Below are positions 31,633 through 38,430 of a stretch of DNA of 64,000 nucleotides, piece by piece (within the stretch, counting starts at the first letter, position 1; the number at the start of each line of letters is the position of its first letter). The stretch spans positions 1-64,000 of the forward strand of contig JAIQFP010000022.1 of assembly GCA_020073165.1 (NCBI GenBank). The letters are read 5' to 3'. Source of the DNA: Terriglobia bacterium. Lineage in GTDB: Bacteria > Acidobacteriota > Terriglobia > Terriglobales > Acidobacteriaceae. The notes under the pieces are model-generated. The model did no database searches. It had not been told where the DNA came from and was given only the letters and a program-made list of their open reading frames with translations. Position numbers and translations under genes: made by a program.

Positions 31633-32859
31633 CTAATGCCGGTAGACGGTTGTGGCGGGATGATAGTTCCGCCAGTCGAACCAGTAGTCCTTGAGGGCCG
31701 GTAATTGCTCCAAGCAGTGGCCCGTGGCCGGACCCATGGTGGCGCAGCCCCGAAAATTCCATTCGCTGCCAGACGAGGAATCGACGAGCACCCAATCCGC
31801 GCTGCCACTCTTGCGGAACAACTCAAGGTCGGCTCCGTCCAACCGGCTCCGAAAAGCGCGCACCGACTTCCCGTCGGGTGCCATCACCAGCAGGATCGGC
31901 ATCCCACCGAGCCGGTCCTGGATGGGGGACTGCGCCGAGAGCGCATTCAGCGGATAGGCGCGACTGACGCCGCTTACATCAAGCCCTACGACTACATCCC
32001 GGGATTGCAGTCCGCTGCCCGGAAAGCTGAGCGGGGTCGGCAACCTCTGCACCTCCGGTTCCCAGTCGTTCTCGTAATGGCCTTCATCGGCCGCAACCGG
32101 AGTGAGCACTTGCCCGGCGGGAGATTCCTGCTTCCACAATCCGAAAGTCAACTCGTCACTGACAACCGGATCGAGCACTTGTCCTTTCAGCGTGCCGAAA
32201 ATAGCTCTTCCCGTGACCTGCTGCCACCAGCTACCCGTTTCTTCATCGCGCATGAGAAAGTTTTGGTTATTGATTCCCGCCAGGCGAAAGTGCAACGCGC
32301 GTCCACCCACCGTACGTTTCCACACCAGACCGGTGTGACAGAGCGTTCAATAGGTGACCGCGATGGGTATGCCCCCCACGATGTCGTTGACCACGTGGTG
32401 ATATGCCATGGCGCGGATGGGATAGGCGCGGACATCGCTGCCGAAGCGGACTGCCATCACCATCTGTGCGGGATCCAGCTTGACGTTTGCCGCAGACTCG
32501 AACCCGGGTAAGGCGACGGGATGGAACATCCACTCGAAATAATCCACGCGCGCCATGACTGCGGCCGCTGAAGCCAGGCCAACACCCAAGACCAGCAAGG
32601 CTTTCTTCCAAGTTGAAGTGCGCCGCCACAGGAAAAGTGCCAGAAGCAGCGCCAGGGCCGCCGTTAACAAACTTCCAAGCGGCGCCTGCTGTCGCACCGC
32701 CATGGCCAACGAGAGCGCATCGGGCGTCTGCGGTCGGAAGGGCCGGATGATGAACGCTGGAACAAAAAAGAGGCCAACGCTCGTCAACACCAACAGCGCG
32801 AACAGCAGGCCTGGAGCAAGGTGGTTTCTCTTCATCCGAATCTGCGCTGCGGTGGTCAA
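31633..32859 (-). CDS. DUF3179 membrane protein with in-frame UGA at a conserved Cys (probable selenoprotein)
   Basis: Read through one UGA (32347-32349), this is a 408-residue protein. The N-terminal part has about three membrane helices (FALLVLTSVGLFFVPAFII, LLTAALALLLALFLW, ALLVLGVGLASAAAVMA). The C-terminal DUF3179 domain has VRAYPIRAMAYHHVVNDIVG, GIPIAVTY-UGA-TLCHTGLVWKR, GSWWQQVTGRAIFG and SRAYPLNALSAQSPI. In this family the motif is VTYCPLCxTG, so the UGA takes the place of the first Cys of a Cys-x2-Cys pair. A hairpin with a GGUCU loop starts nine bases downstream. No frame is lost after the UGA and the domain is complete, which favours selenocysteine over decay. The start may be TTG 32859 (GGAGG nine bases upstream) or ATG 32835. 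Confidence 0.8.
32321..32337 (-). promoter_or_regulatory. Candidate bacterial SECIS hairpin (DUF3179 gene)
   Basis: On the mRNA the sequence CACACC-GGUCU-GGUGUG forms a perfect 6-bp stem with a five-base loop; a U-G pair extends it to seven. The loop starts 15 bases after the UGA and carries G at its first two positions. Bacterial SECIS elements need a small G-containing apical loop about 16-37 bases after the UGA, and the E. coli fdhF loop also contains GGUCU. Not tested by folding. Confidence 0.6.
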
Positions 32860-33049: not shown

Positions 33050-35701
33050 TTAGTAGGGAGTGAAGTCCTGGCGATAACTCACGTTGTTGACGTCCTCAAA
33101 CTGGGGCGTACCCGGCGGCAGGTTGTTCGGGTTCAGGAACAAGCTGTCGAACGAATACACACGGTTGGGCGGACTGTACACCGTGGTGCAACACTTGAAG
33201 ACCCCGGTGGCGTATTGCGCGTAGAACAAGCTCACCAGTGAGCCCTGGTAGTTCAAGTTGCCCGGCCACTGCTCGATGTAGCGCAGGAAGTTGTGCACTC
33301 CGCCGTCGGTACCGTAGTCGGCGGCCGCGCCCCAGCCCTGCGGTTGCGGGAAGTTGAAGTTCTTTCCGGCGGCAATGGCCACTCTATACCAAGTGTCGAC
33401 TGCCACCCGGCTGCCCGGTGTCGTGGGATAGTAGAAGCTCTTGAAATCGCTCCAGCCATTCTTGGCCAAGGTTGGTAAGGGCGCCGGTCTCGAAAGCAGG
33501 GTGACCGCATCGGCAATCACCGCCGCGGCGGAATCCGGGGTGGCGAAGGCACCGTTAGCATTGTAGTCACCCAGGATGTACACCGGGTTCTCCGAGGCCA
33601 CGGTAAAGCCGCCGGTGCCGTCCTTCCGCGTAGGCAGCTTGCCCAGCGTGCCGTCCACCAGCCGTAGCACGTGGCGCGCAGCGGAAACCCGGTTCTTGCG
33701 GGCCAAGGTCAGGCATTTGACGCGCTGGTACGGGTTAAACGGCGGTAAGTTGTTGATCGAGGGCGCCGGGGTAACGAAGGCGTCCATGATCGTTTTGGCG
33801 CCCCAGTTGTCCGCCAGTCCATTCTGGTTCACGTCCTCCGGAGACTGCACGGTGCCAGGGTTATTGGGATCCAGGGCGTTGTCGGGTGTCCCCAAGGCCG
33901 ACGCCTTGTTGATGGTGTCTTCGAAGCCGTACTCACCCGTCAAAGCCGGCGGAACGGTGTTCGGACTTAGTGCCATTCCACGGCGGTCCGAGAAGTACAG
34001 CAGGTAGCCGTTGAGGGTCTGCTCGTCGACCAGCTTCCCGTTGGCGGAGTTGACCAGCCAGGAACGCAGGTTGCCTACATCCAACTCCACCACGTTGATC
34101 ACGCCGTTGGCGGCGCAGGTGGCATTGACGCCGGTCTTGCCCGGGTCGGTGTCGCGCACTTCACCTTCGCGCGCATCGTACATGTTGATCGGGTACCAGT
34201 TGTAGCGGGTCGCGGTCGCGGAGTTGCTCTCCGGCAAGGTGTTGGTGACAGTTTCGTCCGCGTTGCGGTCTGCCAGTTGCTGGAAGATCAGAATGGCATT
34301 GGGATTGGGCCCACCGGCAGCGCCGGGCGCCAGACCGCGCGCGAAGCCCAGTTTTAGCCATTCATTGGTGACACCTATCCAGGTGCCGTCTGGCTTCTTG
34401 ACCTCTACCCGCAGCCAGCCGTCAATGAGCGGCCACCGTTTTGTACCGACGTATAGCGTGGGCGGGATCTGGTCCCCGGCCGCATCGATATACTTGTCGC
34501 CGGCGACAGTGCTGGCATAGGCGAAGTGCACATTGCCGACGCCCGTGACCGGAACACCAGCGGTGTAGGTGGCGCCCAGGCCGGCTTCTTCACTCAAGAG
34601 CACGTCCTCACCGTCGTTCAGAGTAGCGTCTGCGTCCGGGTGAAGGTCCGTCTTGAGGTCTCCCAGCAGGATGCGGATTTGTGCCTTGTTGTAAAGCCTC
34701 GAAGTGGACAGCGTCGTCCCGGTCGCTTCATTGGCGGGCGGTTTGCGGATGATCTGGATGGGTCCCACGCCGGCGCCCACAAAGGGCAGCTGCAAAGCTT
34801 TCGCTCCCGTAAGGCCGTTCAGAATCCAGCCGTTGTAAGTGCCGGTGGAAATGCCCACCCAGCTCCCGTTCGGAGCTCCCGTAGGCGGCGGCCCGCCGGT
34901 GTAGCTCCCCCCCGAAGGCGGGTTCACGTTCGTTGGCGGATTGATTCCCAGGTTGATGCAGTGGGTTGCGCTTTTCGGCGGGTCACATGCATTTGCGGTA
35001 TTGGGAATGTAAACCGGTCCGCCGTGGCTGGACGTGGCGGCGCCAACTCCATTCGCCAGTTGGTCGCGGATCACTTCCTTGGCCGCAGTAATCTTGGAGT
35101 GGAAGGTCAGGGTGCCTCCCGGAGTGATGAAGAGGCTGCCATTGGTGGCTACCCGGCCGGCGAAGTCGAAGTCAGGTCCGGGGAAATAGCTCAGATCGCT
35201 GTCGGAGAACACGCCGAACTGGAACACCGGGATAAGCGCGACCTCCACCGAGCGCTGCATGCGCACCGACGCGCCGGAGGGGCGCTGCGAGGTCACCGAC
35301 AGTGTTATGGGGATGATTTCTGCCACCAGGCCGGCGTTGGGTCCGGACTTGACGTTATCAATATTGGTCACCGGGTTGCCTTTGGCATCCACCGGCACAT
35401 TGATGTTGTACTCCGTGAAGGCGACGTGGGGAACGTCCGGGGGAAAGGCGTTGAGGGCGGTGATGCTGCCGACCGACGGGGCCTGATTTGCGGTGTACAG
35501 ATTCCCCAGGTCGGAGGTCATCTTCTCCATGCCCGCTTCCGCGCCGTAGTAGGCCAGGTTGTTCTCCATGTCATTCCCACCCACACGGGCTTCCGTGTTG
35601 GTCATGTACATGAGACCGACGGCCAGGCCTGACATCAGCAGCAGCAGCAGCAGGGCTGCGATCAACGTGAAGCCTTTCGCACGGGACTGATTGGTACCCA
35701 T
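33050..35701 (-). CDS. PilX-like minor pilin, very large
   Basis: An 883-residue protein starting with a class III prepilin leader: KGFTLIAALLLLLLMSGLAV, then TNTEARVGGNDMENNLAYYGAEAGMEKM, which is the PilX N-terminal block. The rest is a long extracellular part with Gly/Pro/Asn-rich stretches and no Cys-rich adhesin domain I can name; the last Cys residues (CKCCTTV near residue 835) could pair. Ordinary PilX is about 170-200 residues, so this one carries about 650 additional residues, possibly an adhesive tip module. The ATG at 35701 follows GGAG. It is last in the operon FimT-PilV-PilW-PilX. The prepilin peptidase and assembly ATPases are not in the window. Confidence 0.85.
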   Translation of the reverse strand: MGTNQSRAKGFTLIAALLLLLLMSGLAVGLMYMTNTEARVGGNDMENNLAYYGAEAGMEKMTSDLGNLYTANQAPSVGSITALNAFPPDVPHVAFTEYNINVPVDAKGNPVTNIDNVKSGPNAGLVAEIIPITLSVTSQRPSGASVRMQRSVEVALIPVFQFGVFSDSDLSYFPGPDFDFAGRVATNGSLFITPGGTLTFHSKITAAKEVIRDQLANGVGAATSSHGGPVYIPNTANACDPPKSATHCINLGINPPTNVNPPSGGSYTGGPPPTGAPNGSWVGISTGTYNGWILNGLTGAKALQLPFVGAGVGPIQIIRKPPANEATGTTLSTSRLYNKAQIRILLGDLKTDLHPDADATLNDGEDVLLSEEAGLGATYTAGVPVTGVGNVHFAYASTVAGDKYIDAAGDQIPPTLYVGTKRWPLIDGWLRVEVKKPDGTWIGVTNEWLKLGFARGLAPGAAGGPNPNAILIFQQLADRNADETVTNTLPESNSATATRYNWYPINMYDAREGEVRDTDPGKTGVNATCAANGVINVVELDVGNLRSWLVNSANGKLVDEQTLNGYLLYFSDRRGMALSPNTVPPALTGEYGFEDTINKASALGTPDNALDPNNPGTVQSPEDVNQNGLADNWGAKTIMDAFVTPAPSINNLPPFNPYQRVKCLTLARKNRVSAARHVLRLVDGTLGKLPTRKDGTGGFTVASENPVYILGDYNANGAFATPDSAAAVIADAVTLLSRPAPLPTLAKNGWSDFKSFYYPTTPGSRVAVDTWYRVAIAAGKNFNFPQPQGWGAAADYGTDGGVHNFLRYIEQWPGNLNYQGSLVSLFYAQYATGVFKCCTTVYSPPNRVYSFDSLFLNPNNLPPGTPQFEDVNNVSYRQDFTPY

Positions 35702-35751
35702 AACGGTTCTCCTCAATTCCTCCATACGTGTCCTTCCAGCTAGCTTTCCCC

Positions 35752-36891
35752 TCATTGGTAGCGATCCTTGAAGCTCATGTCACGGGCGCTGACCGAAGTG
35801 GCCAGGTTCAGTGTCTGGAACCCTTGCTTGCCACCCGGCATGGGGCTGCGCGTCATCACGCTGAGATTCACCTTGCGGATCTGGTTGGGGGACTTTCCGG
35901 CGGACATCCCGGCATCCTTCAGATTGGCGGTGGCCACGCCGGCCACGTCGTCATAAATGTCGTAACTGGCTTGCAGCCCGGCCACGTTCTCTGCGACCGG
36001 CACCGGCGACTGCCCATTCACCTGTTTCATCAGGCGGGGCGGCCCATCGTCTGCGGTATAGCGGATCCCGTCTGCTCCCGCAGGAATGTCGATGTAATAG
36101 GTGAGCACCAGGAGGCGGTTGCAGACGATCGGCGGCGGGACTGCCGGCGGGGCCGCGCCTCCCCAAAGCGCCTTGATATTGCCGCCGGCCGCGGTGTTCT
36201 GATTGATACGGAGGGCGTCGCCGTTGGCAAAGGTCACCACACCCCCGGCCCCGACCAGCGTGACCTCGCCTATCGCCTGTCCCACGCTGTTGCTGAACAG
36301 GATCAGGTCACCGACTTTCAATCCCACTGCGGGATCATTGATGGCTGGCGGCGGCCACGGCACGGGTAGTGGATTAGGGGCGGGATTGACCGGGGTGAAG
36401 GTTGCCTGACTGCCACTCGCGTTCAGCGCCACGCTGTACTCGTTCAGCGGGAAGGTGGTGTCCGTGTAGGCGATCGTAAGCACGTCGGTAGGCGGACTCA
36501 GCACCCCCGCGGCCGTCATCACTTTCAACCCGGCTGCCGGGTTGGGAATCACCCCGTAGAGGTGATTGTTGATGGGATAAATATTGTTGGTGGTGTAGCA
36601 CGTGGTCTGGTCGCAGCCGAAAAGCGAACCCGTGGCCCCGGCCCCATCCGGCAACTGTACTCCGCCCGAGGTGATGCCGGCGCCCGCCAGGCTGATGTCT
36701 TTGGCCATCATGTCCAGCGCAGCCCGGCCGTCCTGCTGCATTTCGGCGCGCTGGGTTACCAGGAAGCTGGCGCCCAGCGCCTTGCTGAACAGGTTCACGG
36801 CTGCAGATAGAATGACCAAGCCCATGGCCATGGCTACCAGCAACTCCGCCAAGCTAAAGCCACGATTTTTCGTTCTGTCGCTACGCCTCAT
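35752..36891 (-). CDS. PilW-family minor pilin
   Basis: A 379-residue prepilin-like protein: leader ending RGFSLAELLVAMAMGLVILS (cleavage after Gly, Glu at +5 of the mature chain), then the PilW block QRAEMQQDGRAALDMMAKDISLAGAG. The C-terminal domain contains VNLSVMTRSPMPGGKQGFQ and TSVSARDMSFKDR. PilW is one of the minor pilins that prime type IV pilus assembly at the inner membrane. It lies 50 bp from the PilX-like gene and 11 bp from the PilV-like gene, in one operon. Confidence 0.9.
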   Translation of the reverse strand: MRRSDRTKNRGFSLAELLVAMAMGLVILSAAVNLFSKALGASFLVTQRAEMQQDGRAALDMMAKDISLAGAGITSGGVQLPDGAGATGSLFGCDQTTCYTTNNIYPINNHLYGVIPNPAAGLKVMTAAGVLSPPTDVLTIAYTDTTFPLNEYSVALNASGSQATFTPVNPAPNPLPVPWPPPAINDPAVGLKVGDLILFSNSVGQAIGEVTLVGAGGVVTFANGDALRINQNTAAGGNIKALWGGAAPPAVPPPIVCNRLLVLTYYIDIPAGADGIRYTADDGPPRLMKQVNGQSPVPVAENVAGLQASYDIYDDVAGVATANLKDAGMSAGKSPNQIRKVNLSVMTRSPMPGGKQGFQTLNLATSVSARDMSFKDRYQ

Positions 36892-36902
36892 GAGTCATCC
36901 CT

Positions 36903-37508
36903 CTAGCGGAACTGGGAAATGTACGCGCCCACGGCATACGTCTTCTGCGTGGCCTTGAACTGACTGGTGGTGTAGGTCACGGTGACGGTAATGGAGCGCA
37001 AGGTCGAATCGATGCCGCCACCCGGAGCCCCGACGTTGGCAATGGCGATAGTGCGCTGGTAGTTGTTGAGGGGCTGCATCACGTCATCGGCAGTGCCCAG
37101 CACTCCGTCGGGCCCCGGCAGCACCAGGCACTGCGAAGGTCCGGGACAATAGGGGTTGGCATTGGTGTCGTCGGCGGTCCCATCCAGCCCGTCTTTACCG
37201 GGGTCCAATACAGGCTGAGCGTTGTCCAGGAAAATGCCGCCGTTGCTCACATTCTGAATCTGGTTCCAGGTGATCTGCGAAGTGTTGCGCGCGGTGAAGA
37301 TACTCTCCAGCGTGGCCGCCGCTTCCTGCTTGGCGATCATGTCTTCCTGCGCCGAGTTCGTGGAGGCCAGGGCCACGGAAAACATGGCCAGCATGCTCAC
37401 CATGCCGATGGTGAGCACCACGATCGAGAACAACACTTCCAGAATGCTGAAGCCCTGCTCGGCCGGGCGAGGGCGAAGCTCGGAGCGAATTTGTCCAGCC
37501 ATCGTCAT
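36903..37508 (-). CDS. PilV-family minor pilin
   Basis: A 201-residue prepilin-like protein with leader EQGFSILEVLFSIVVLTIGM (Glu at +5) and then ALASTNSAQEDMIAKQEAAAT. The end, SQFKATQKTYAVGAYISQFR, is typical of the pilin globular domain. The ATG at 37508 overlaps the upstream stop (ATGA), so translation is coupled to the FimT/GspH gene. The DGVLGTADD and DGLDGTADD repeats in the middle look like calcium-binding loops. Role: minor pilin in the initiation complex. Confidence 0.88.
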   Translation of the reverse strand: MTMAGQIRSELRPRPAEQGFSILEVLFSIVVLTIGMVSMLAMFSVALASTNSAQEDMIAKQEAAATLESIFTARNTSQITWNQIQNVSNGGIFLDNAQPVLDPGKDGLDGTADDTNANPYCPGPSQCLVLPGPDGVLGTADDVMQPLNNYQRTIAIANVGAPGGGIDSTLRSITVTVTYTTSQFKATQKTYAVGAYISQFR

Positions 37509-38128
37509 TGCTGACTCCAGTGCGGAATCCCGGCGGTCTGCGATGCGTACAAACGCCATCCGCGTATGCGGCCTGCGGAACCAATCATGGTGATGGCCCG
37601 CGAACTGTAAAGCTCGTTGACCCGCGCCAGGTAGACCACGCCGTTGTTGATGTTGTTGTTGACGTCGCGCGCCGACCCGTCAGGGAAAAAGTAAATCTGG
37701 TTTTCCACGCCGCCTGCCACCCCGATATCGAACTGCACCGCCTTGCTACCCGTGCCCAGACCGTCGGGGGTGGTCGTGACCGTGTTGGGGATCCCGGGTA
37801 TGTTCAAGAACTGAATGTCGGGGGGGAGGGTCATCTGGTTGACCACCGGGCCGACCAACCCGGCATCCATGCGGTTGATCTGGATCATGTTGGTACCGGG
37901 AGGAAGGCCGACGGGATTGAAAGTCACCTGATAGGTTTTGCGGTTGTCGACAGCCCATTGCCGCGCCTGCCGGAGCGTCATCAAGGTCCCGTTGTAGGCG
38001 GCGTTCAGGCGCGCATCCTGCCACGCCGGCCGCAGGCTGTAGTACGAGATCCCACTCATGATCAGGACGATGCTGATCGCGATCAGCGCCTCGATCAAAG
38101 TAAAACCGCGTGCATTCTTGGAAGGCAT
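37505..38128 (-). CDS. FimT/GspH-family minor pseudopilin
   Basis: A 207-residue prepilin-like protein: MPSKNARGFTLIEALIAIS, a seven-residue leader before GFTLIE, then SLRPAWQDARLNAAYNGTLM and RQARQWAVDNRKTYQVTF, the FimT/GspH signature. The C-terminal part has NQIYFFPDGSARDVNNN. I chose the ATG at 38128 for its normal leader length; ATGs at 38164 and 38182 are also in frame. It is the first gene of the operon and carries the operon's promoter upstream. FimT of some bacteria binds DNA during competence; whether this one does is unknown. Confidence 0.85.
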   Translation of the reverse strand: MPSKNARGFTLIEALIAISIVLIMSGISYYSLRPAWQDARLNAAYNGTLMTLRQARQWAVDNRKTYQVTFNPVGLPPGTNMIQINRMDAGLVGPVVNQMTLPPDIQFLNIPGIPNTVTTTPDGLGTGSKAVQFDIGVAGGVENQIYFFPDGSARDVNNNINNGVVYLARVNELYSSRAITMIGSAGRIRGWRLYASQTAGIPHWSQQ

Positions 38129-38430
38129 GTGCCCTTTCTTGGGAGAGGCTGGCTCGCGGTTCATGTCGTGTCCAGGGGTCATAAGACCTCACTGCCGCCA
38201 TCTCGGCGTAGGAGACTGGCGCACTTAACCGCAGACCAGAGGGAGGTTGAGACCGGCACGGAAATCCTGCCGGGCCATCGCGCTATCGATCATCGTATGG
38301 AGGGGTTGCGGGAGCGTCAAAGCACCGAAGTACCAGTCCTCAACCCTGGACTTCCGTAACGTAATCGGGCGGGGTAACTCTGGTCACTTTGGCATTGCAG
38401 CAGAGCAAAACCCCTGCGCCGCCAACTGCT
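38129..38430. other. Intergenic region upstream of the pilin operon
   Basis: About 300 bp carrying the presumed promoter of the leftward pilin operon. No -10/-35 pair stands out and no gene is visible. Confidence 0.4.

Follow-up and report, generated by a model that had tools for sequence, protein, structure and literature searches.

A DUF3179 gene in an acidobacterial genome is divided by a single in-frame UGA codon, which raises the question of whether this codon terminates the protein or is read as selenocysteine (Sec) and, if the latter, what the resulting selenoprotein might do. The gene lies on the minus strand of the window, a contiguous stretch of 64,000 nucleotides assigned to a Terriglobia bacterium. 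Translation of the frame at 31633-32859 revealed TGA as its sole internal stop, within VTY-*-TLC-HTGLVW, and the family profile PF11376 (DUF3179) spanned both sides of it (E 1.1e-63, 215.9 bits relative to a curated cut-off of 27, profile positions 10-292 of 292); the genome-level match to PF11376 (8.2e-62) likewise contained '1 TGA'. The initial annotation, which described one DUF3179 frame split only by UGA at 32347-32349, was thus borne out. Translation may start from TTG at 32859 or, more likely, from ATG at 32833-32835, the latter agreeing with the alignment of relatives and giving 400 residues including Sec, whilst the stop codon is TAG at 31633-31635. The gene has the following features:

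31633..32859, minus strand: DUF3179 gene, very probably encoding a selenoprotein (translation and PF11376 match)
32545..32802, minus strand: three hydrophobic segments (residues 12-30, 51-69 and 79-97), a probable membrane anchor (hydropathy and predicted helices)
32395..32400, minus strand: His-146 and His-147 (alignments of relatives)
32347..32349, minus strand: the UGA codon, putative Sec-163, at the U/C position of the family (U or C in 133/133 aligned sequences)
32338..32340, minus strand: Cys-166, the +3 partner in U-T-L-C (C in 123/133, otherwise T, A, V or S)
31714-31716 and 31744-31746, minus strand: a second Cys pair, C364 and C374 (invariant in 12 aligned subtype-A proteins)

Searches of the genome from which the window originates (G000; 4.6 Mb in 35 contigs) retrieved selA, selB, selC and selD, such that a lack of selABCD does not stand against a selenoprotein. 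Matches were obtained to SelA (3.4e-112), SelB (1.0e-110) and SelD (2.3e-76), the last of which itself carries an in-frame TGA in AAG-U-ASK, along with a tRNA-Sec (selC) scoring 70.3 bits with the anticodon tca (UCA). By the textbook pathway, SelD would generate selenophosphate, SelA would convert Ser-tRNA-Sec to Sec-tRNA-Sec, and SelB would bind a hairpin with a GGUCU loop, described below, and deliver Sec-tRNA-Sec to the UGA at 32347-32349.

The UGA is not unique to this genome. Among 61 genomes (its own and 60 relatives), DUF3179 was found in 20, with one TGA inside a match in 18 of these. In one of the genomes (G060) the only TGA-bearing match was L034, a far-diverged frame resembling DUF3179 whose UGA falls in ATF-U-VVC-NTG; it occupied an end branch of approximately 10 in the tree and is of uncertain membership. 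Scanning of named genomes yielded 161 confirmed relatives, the best 80 of which were kept; by title these belong to Acidobacteriota lineages, except for L129 ('bacterium'), and the closest was a Terriglobia MAG with 82% identity. The codon at the site was TGA in 74 and TGC in six of the best 80 of 161, a ratio that is not a frequency since it derives from two peptide patterns, of which one detects Cys forms only, and from the best-scoring relatives. Exchange of Sec and Cys at this site, which the initial annotation had suggested looking for in homologues, was therefore seen directly. A separate draw of 396 Acidobacteriota genomes contained the family in 133, with one TGA in at least 52 among the rows listed (hand count), and 30 loci fetched from this draw had U at the motif in nine cases. 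In an alignment of 133 sequences, U (102) and C (31) were the only residues at the start of the motif, in agreement with the earlier placement of the UGA at a family Cys position.

An in-frame stop usually signifies a recent nonsense mutation (a pseudogene) or a sequencing error, and the 50-nt fold at this UGA, taken alone, is unremarkable. Such an origin is nonetheless exceedingly improbable, for the same TGA recurs in 74 of the best 80 of 161 relatives, the DUF3179 TGA is present in 18/20 genomes, and the protein is conserved on both sides of the UGA; we regard a nonsense mutation as refuted by this conservation of the TGA. There are bacteria in which UGA encodes Trp or Gly, a precedent for reassignment of the codon (e.g. 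to Trp), or for non-specific readthrough, in the present lineage. The chance of this appears just as minute: the column is never W or G, matches in the genome to SelA (2), the SelB profile (8) and Rieske proteins (8) have no inner stop, the TGA of SelD is at its expected Sec site, the full Sec machinery is present, and the downstream hairpin goes with TGA and is not retained alongside TGC. Conservation, column content and Sec machinery accordingly led to the rejection of all three alternatives (nonsense mutation, sequencing error and a reassigned UGA). The comparative evidence (Sec machinery, conserved UGA and Sec/Cys exchange at the column) instead supports the selenoprotein reading put forward in the initial annotation and identifies the UGA (32347-32349) as a codon for selenocysteine, very probably read as such in this soil acidobacterium.

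A candidate SECIS element is situated immediately downstream of the UGA:

32321..32337, minus strand: SECIS hairpin CACACC-GGUCU-GGUGUG, loop at 32327-32331 (near-frozen synonymous sites)

The hairpin (32337-32321) consists of a perfect 6-bp stem that begins nine bases after the UGA and a 5-nt loop that begins 15 nt past it; the coordinates, stem, GGUCU loop and both distances (9 and 15 bases) had been given correctly in the initial annotation. In the 50-base stretch that it had suggested folding, however, the structure of lowest energy is a different one from the hairpin (z -0.25). Stretches of 30 and 37 nt after the UGA do have the hairpin as their minimum-energy fold, at -9.5 and -10.6 kcal/mol, respectively. 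Thermodynamics alone is weak evidence for a SECIS hairpin, and since the hairpin is the minimum-energy structure only in the two shorter folds, the SECIS claim rests on comparison rather than on folding. A published bSECIS model (PMC13188914) specifies a loop of 3-9 nt, a stem of 4-16 bp, G in the first two loop positions, a spacing of 16-37 nt and an MFE of -7.5 or lower. The loop, stem, G and MFE of the present hairpin lie within these limits, whilst its spacing is 15 nt, or 16 nt if the inner G-U is counted as the N1-N2 pair.

Comparison across the relatives demonstrated that the exact 17-nt hairpin is present in 70/74 TGA relatives and in 0/6 Cys relatives, and it is this contrast that constitutes the beyond-chance evidence for the hairpin; across the aligned genes, the hairpin follows TGA and does not persist where the codon is TGC. 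All six hairpin pairs are present in 71/74 Sec genes, and the loop codon is GGT in 74/74 Sec genes as opposed to GGG in 6/6 Cys genes. One Cys gene (L122) still has the six pairs, though its hairpin is not exact. Amongst the Sec genes, L079 has a compensatory C-G to G-C change and L110 has lost one pair. Two further loci (L068:6484 and L106:6472) have lost two pairs of the original hairpin, but a 7-bp replacement that again presents GGUCU in its loop forms 5 nt further downstream, an apparent shift of the SECIS. At the five conserved hairpin residues 167-171, the share of the commonest codon was 0.96-1.00, compared with a median of 0.58 outside residues 164-171 (conserved residues, 79 columns in all; Mann-Whitney p 1.2e-4, a guide only since the sites share one tree). 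The codons flanking the UGA were also near-fixed in the 74 Sec genes, with the Tyr codon TAT before it (32350-32352, 0.97) and the Thr codon ACG after it (32344-32346, 0.96); these lie beyond the hairpin itself and may reflect UGA context or an extended structure. When 13 genes of other Sec subtypes were folded, the loop began 19-24 nt past the UGA in 13/13, with G in the first two loop positions in 11/13, figures that are descriptive because fold length was chosen by the lowest energy per base and there was no control.

In a tree of 85 proteins (rooted at its midpoint; L034 and the subtype-B rows sit on long branches), the six Cys rows formed one clade with support of 100/100 that was placed among the Sec rows and adjoined the Sec row L102 (80/85). 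SelA was surveyed in 14 of the 74 Sec genomes and in all six Cys genomes, and a strong match (best E 1.2e-111 or lower) was obtained in 14/14 sampled Sec genomes versus 1/6 Cys genomes. Two of the other Cys genomes had no SelA match and three had partial matches only (best E 2.5e-7, 5.7e-5 and 9.1e-5); by the Pfam cut-off 4/6 Cys genomes have a SelA match, and the three were graded weak because they are partial, although past that cut-off. The sole strong match among the six belonged to an Edaphobacter (L104, genome G063) that encodes a Cys-DUF3179 yet has kept full-length SelA. With this organism as the exception, the pattern fits a change from Sec to Cys that was linked with loss of the Sec machinery.

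The residue at the +3 position of the motif was more variable than the first, being C in 123, A in four, T in four, V in one and S in one of the 133 aligned sequences. Sec motifs comprised U-TLC-HTG (the window protein), U-SLC-HTG, U-SYC-NTA/GTA, U-PLC-GTG, U-PLA-HTG/STG, U-PLT-GSG, U-PLV-NAG and U-VVC-NTG. Six Sec-DUF3179 genes (L140, L149, L151, L155, L159 and L138) have V, A or T in place of Cys at +3. The initial annotation had proposed a U-x2-C redox motif; the Cys at +3 is indeed present in the window protein (U-T-L-C), but elsewhere other residues occupy this position in 10/133 sequences, and the redox role is one that we infer. Because Cys at +3 alternates with T, A or V among the Sec subtypes of the Acidobacteriota, the second thiol is common yet dispensable, and by this alignment the constant group of the family is the Sec/Cys at the first place. 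Of the neighbouring residues, His-146 is conserved at 90% or more in a 64-sequence alignment (A2), whilst in 12 subtype-A proteins (alignment A1) His-147 is invariant and three of the 12 have Tyr at 146; Cys-364 and Cys-374 are both invariant in this latter set.

Downstream of the hydrophobic segments, the protein is composed of two related halves:

32101..32463, minus strand: first repeat (residues 125-245) with Sec-163, predicted Rieske-like fold (homology to repeat 2 and VIA Z 8.2 to 3gce)
31636..32007, minus strand: second repeat (residues 277-400) with Cys-364 and Cys-374, predicted Rieske-like fold (VIA Z 8.9 to 5cxm; hhalign versus Rieske E 4.3e-5)

The two repeats aligned to one another with hhalign at 99.8% (E 5.5e-29). 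A domain model built from 64 sequences had a pLDDT of 94.5 and a pTM of 0.90, and an earlier, poorer model (pLDDT 77.6) gave the same Rieske result. All 50 VIA matches listed (307 chains had Z of at least 2) were Rieske proteins or complexes containing a Rieske subunit, as identified by title and, in a few cases, as presumed; they covered both repeats with Z of 7.1 to 9.5, where a VIA Z of 7-8 can arise by chance. These included 8hn2 (Z 9.5, 3.1 A, 96 residues, alignment spanning 134-300), PetC3 5cxm (Z 8.9, 2.5 A, 92 residues) and 3gce (Z 8.2, 2.8 A, 94 residues). None of the Foldseek matches reached E <= 0.001, and unrelated chains figured among those listed, one of them at rank 1 (probability 0.08). 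Thioredoxin-fold chains were absent from the structure matches listed, which does not amount to an exclusion. By profile, repeat 2 matched the Rieske proteins of its own genome with E 4.3e-5 and a score of 30.8, against at most 16.2 in 100 column shuffles. The equivalent score for repeat 1 was not significant (17.1, with 100 shuffles reaching 18.0), and the fold of this repeat is hence argued from the structure search and its homology with repeat 2. Single-protein Pfam scans of the 64 members yielded no convincing Rieske match (1/64, Rieske_2, E 0.069), nor did a sequence search of the PDB yield a convincing DUF3179 relative. The case for the predicted Rieske-like fold thus rests on consistency, on its recovery in each half and on the match of repeat 2 by profile.

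Profile alignments indicated that the C-x-H and C-x-x-H cluster ligands are absent, with repeat 2 having D-x-x-S-G in place of C-x-x-H-G and repeat 1 having D-x-x-T-G there. Chained profile alignments positioned the Sec before the first Rieske cluster loop, outside the old cluster loops. An arrangement with U-x-x-C in the second cluster loop (C-x-x-H) and H146 in the first was considered and dropped, as D-x-x-T/S-G occupies the former and the Sec precedes the first loop.

The product is thus predicted to be anchored in the membrane through its N-terminal part, with a domain that would lie outside the cytoplasm and consist of two Rieske-like folds in tandem, both devoid of 2Fe-2S ligands. DUF3179 is probably an extracytoplasmic selenol/thiol redox enzyme, the chemistry of which we infer. 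A tentative proposal, which falls just short of an even chance, is that a duplicated Rieske scaffold lost both iron-sulphur sites and was reconstructed around a Sec/Cys carried by a beta-hairpin that lies outside the former cluster loops, giving an extracytoplasmic selenol redox enzyme in which the +3 thiol is optional, such that the selenol could act alone. Held with slightly less conviction still is the more specific possibility that the selenol of the first repeat and a conserved His perform redox chemistry of the selenol/thiol oxidoreductase or peroxidase type, where the +3 Cys, if present, might serve as the resolving or partner thiol; in subtype A, the Cys pair 364/374 could pass electrons on. 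Alternatively, Sec may be inserted into a protein that is no redox enzyme, with the selenol, the His and perhaps the +3 Cys forming a metal or cofactor site. The conserved His and U/C-163 would suit such a site, and Rieske-like scaffolds classically hold metal, but the residue at +3 lacks the conservation expected of a ligand and D-x-x-T-G stands where Rieske proteins have C-x-x-H-G; we consider this explanation unlikely, and the selenol redox enzyme remains the preferred reading.

The genomic neighbourhood was surveyed for leads to function. Directly upstream of the DUF3179 gene is a minor-pilin cluster (33050-38182, minus strand) with PilX_N, N_methyl and PilV-like genes, ending in the following:

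33050..35755, minus strand: PilX_N-type minor-pilin gene, upstream of the DUF3179 gene on the same strand, last gene of the pilin cluster

A homologue of this last gene was located upstream of DUF3179 in 24 of the best 80 of 161 relatives, lying 39-686 nt ahead of the first ATG in the frame; more than 3.5 kb of sequence precedes the UGA in 70 of these 80 loci. As the remaining loci either have no pilin homologue or are too short, the pilus link is only a lead. Among those clusters of neighbouring frames in the 80 loci that were inspected, the pilin cluster (24 loci) gave the only recognisable lead to a role. No DUF3179 was confirmed in viral contigs, and among 20 matches listed from plasmid records three were named 'DUF3179 domain-containing (seleno)protein', these being haloarchaeal and their name no proof of Sec.

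A 'DUF3179 domain-containing protein, UxxC/T' appears in the selenoprotein list of PMC9312934, and the same Sec-DUF3179 entry, UxxC/T, is given in PMC13188914; both credit the entry to Zhang and Gladyshev 2007 (Olavius algarvensis delta-1 symbiont). Being already in these published lists, Sec-DUF3179 is not new as a kind. The acidobacterium tested in PMC12013277 is described there with three known selenoproteins. In literature mentioning DUF3179, the text around that word held nothing on its fold, and a literature search joining the Rieske-like fold with selenocysteine found no paper. The present analysis adds several Sec subtypes in the Acidobacteriota that differ at +3 (C, T, A or V), a Cys clade among the Sec forms, 5/6 of whose genomes have no full-length SelA match, and the prediction that DUF3179 is a tandem repeat of two Rieske-like folds devoid of iron-sulphur ligands.

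Annotation that treats UGA as a stop easily cuts such genes in two, and the comparative evidence is strong enough for DUF3179 to be re-annotated in the Acidobacteriota. The cluster-less predicted fold and the Sec forms lacking a second Cys offer testable handles on DUF3179 function, whilst the Cys clade with its changed hairpin provides a natural control for SECIS function.

With respect to known systems, the hairpin shares with the SECIS of E. coli fdhF a GGUCU loop on a short stem after the UGA; it differs in that its perfect 6-bp stem has no bulged U and its loop lies approximately three bases nearer to the UGA. Rieske ferredoxins and other Rieske proteins (PetC3 5cxm, 8hn2 and 3gce) have in common with both DUF3179 repeats a predicted fold, with VIA Z of 8.2-9.5 over 92-96 residues, yet DUF3179 lacks their C-x-H and C-x-x-H cluster ligands and carries its Sec before the first cluster loop. 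The catalogued Sec-DUF3179 (PF11376) belongs to the same Pfam family as the window gene and has the same U-x-x-C/T motif. As far as the review descriptions of that entry extend, the group of the window gene is set apart from it by its occurrence in the Acidobacteriota, its U-x-x-A and U-x-x-V subtypes, its near-frozen hairpin and its Cys clade.
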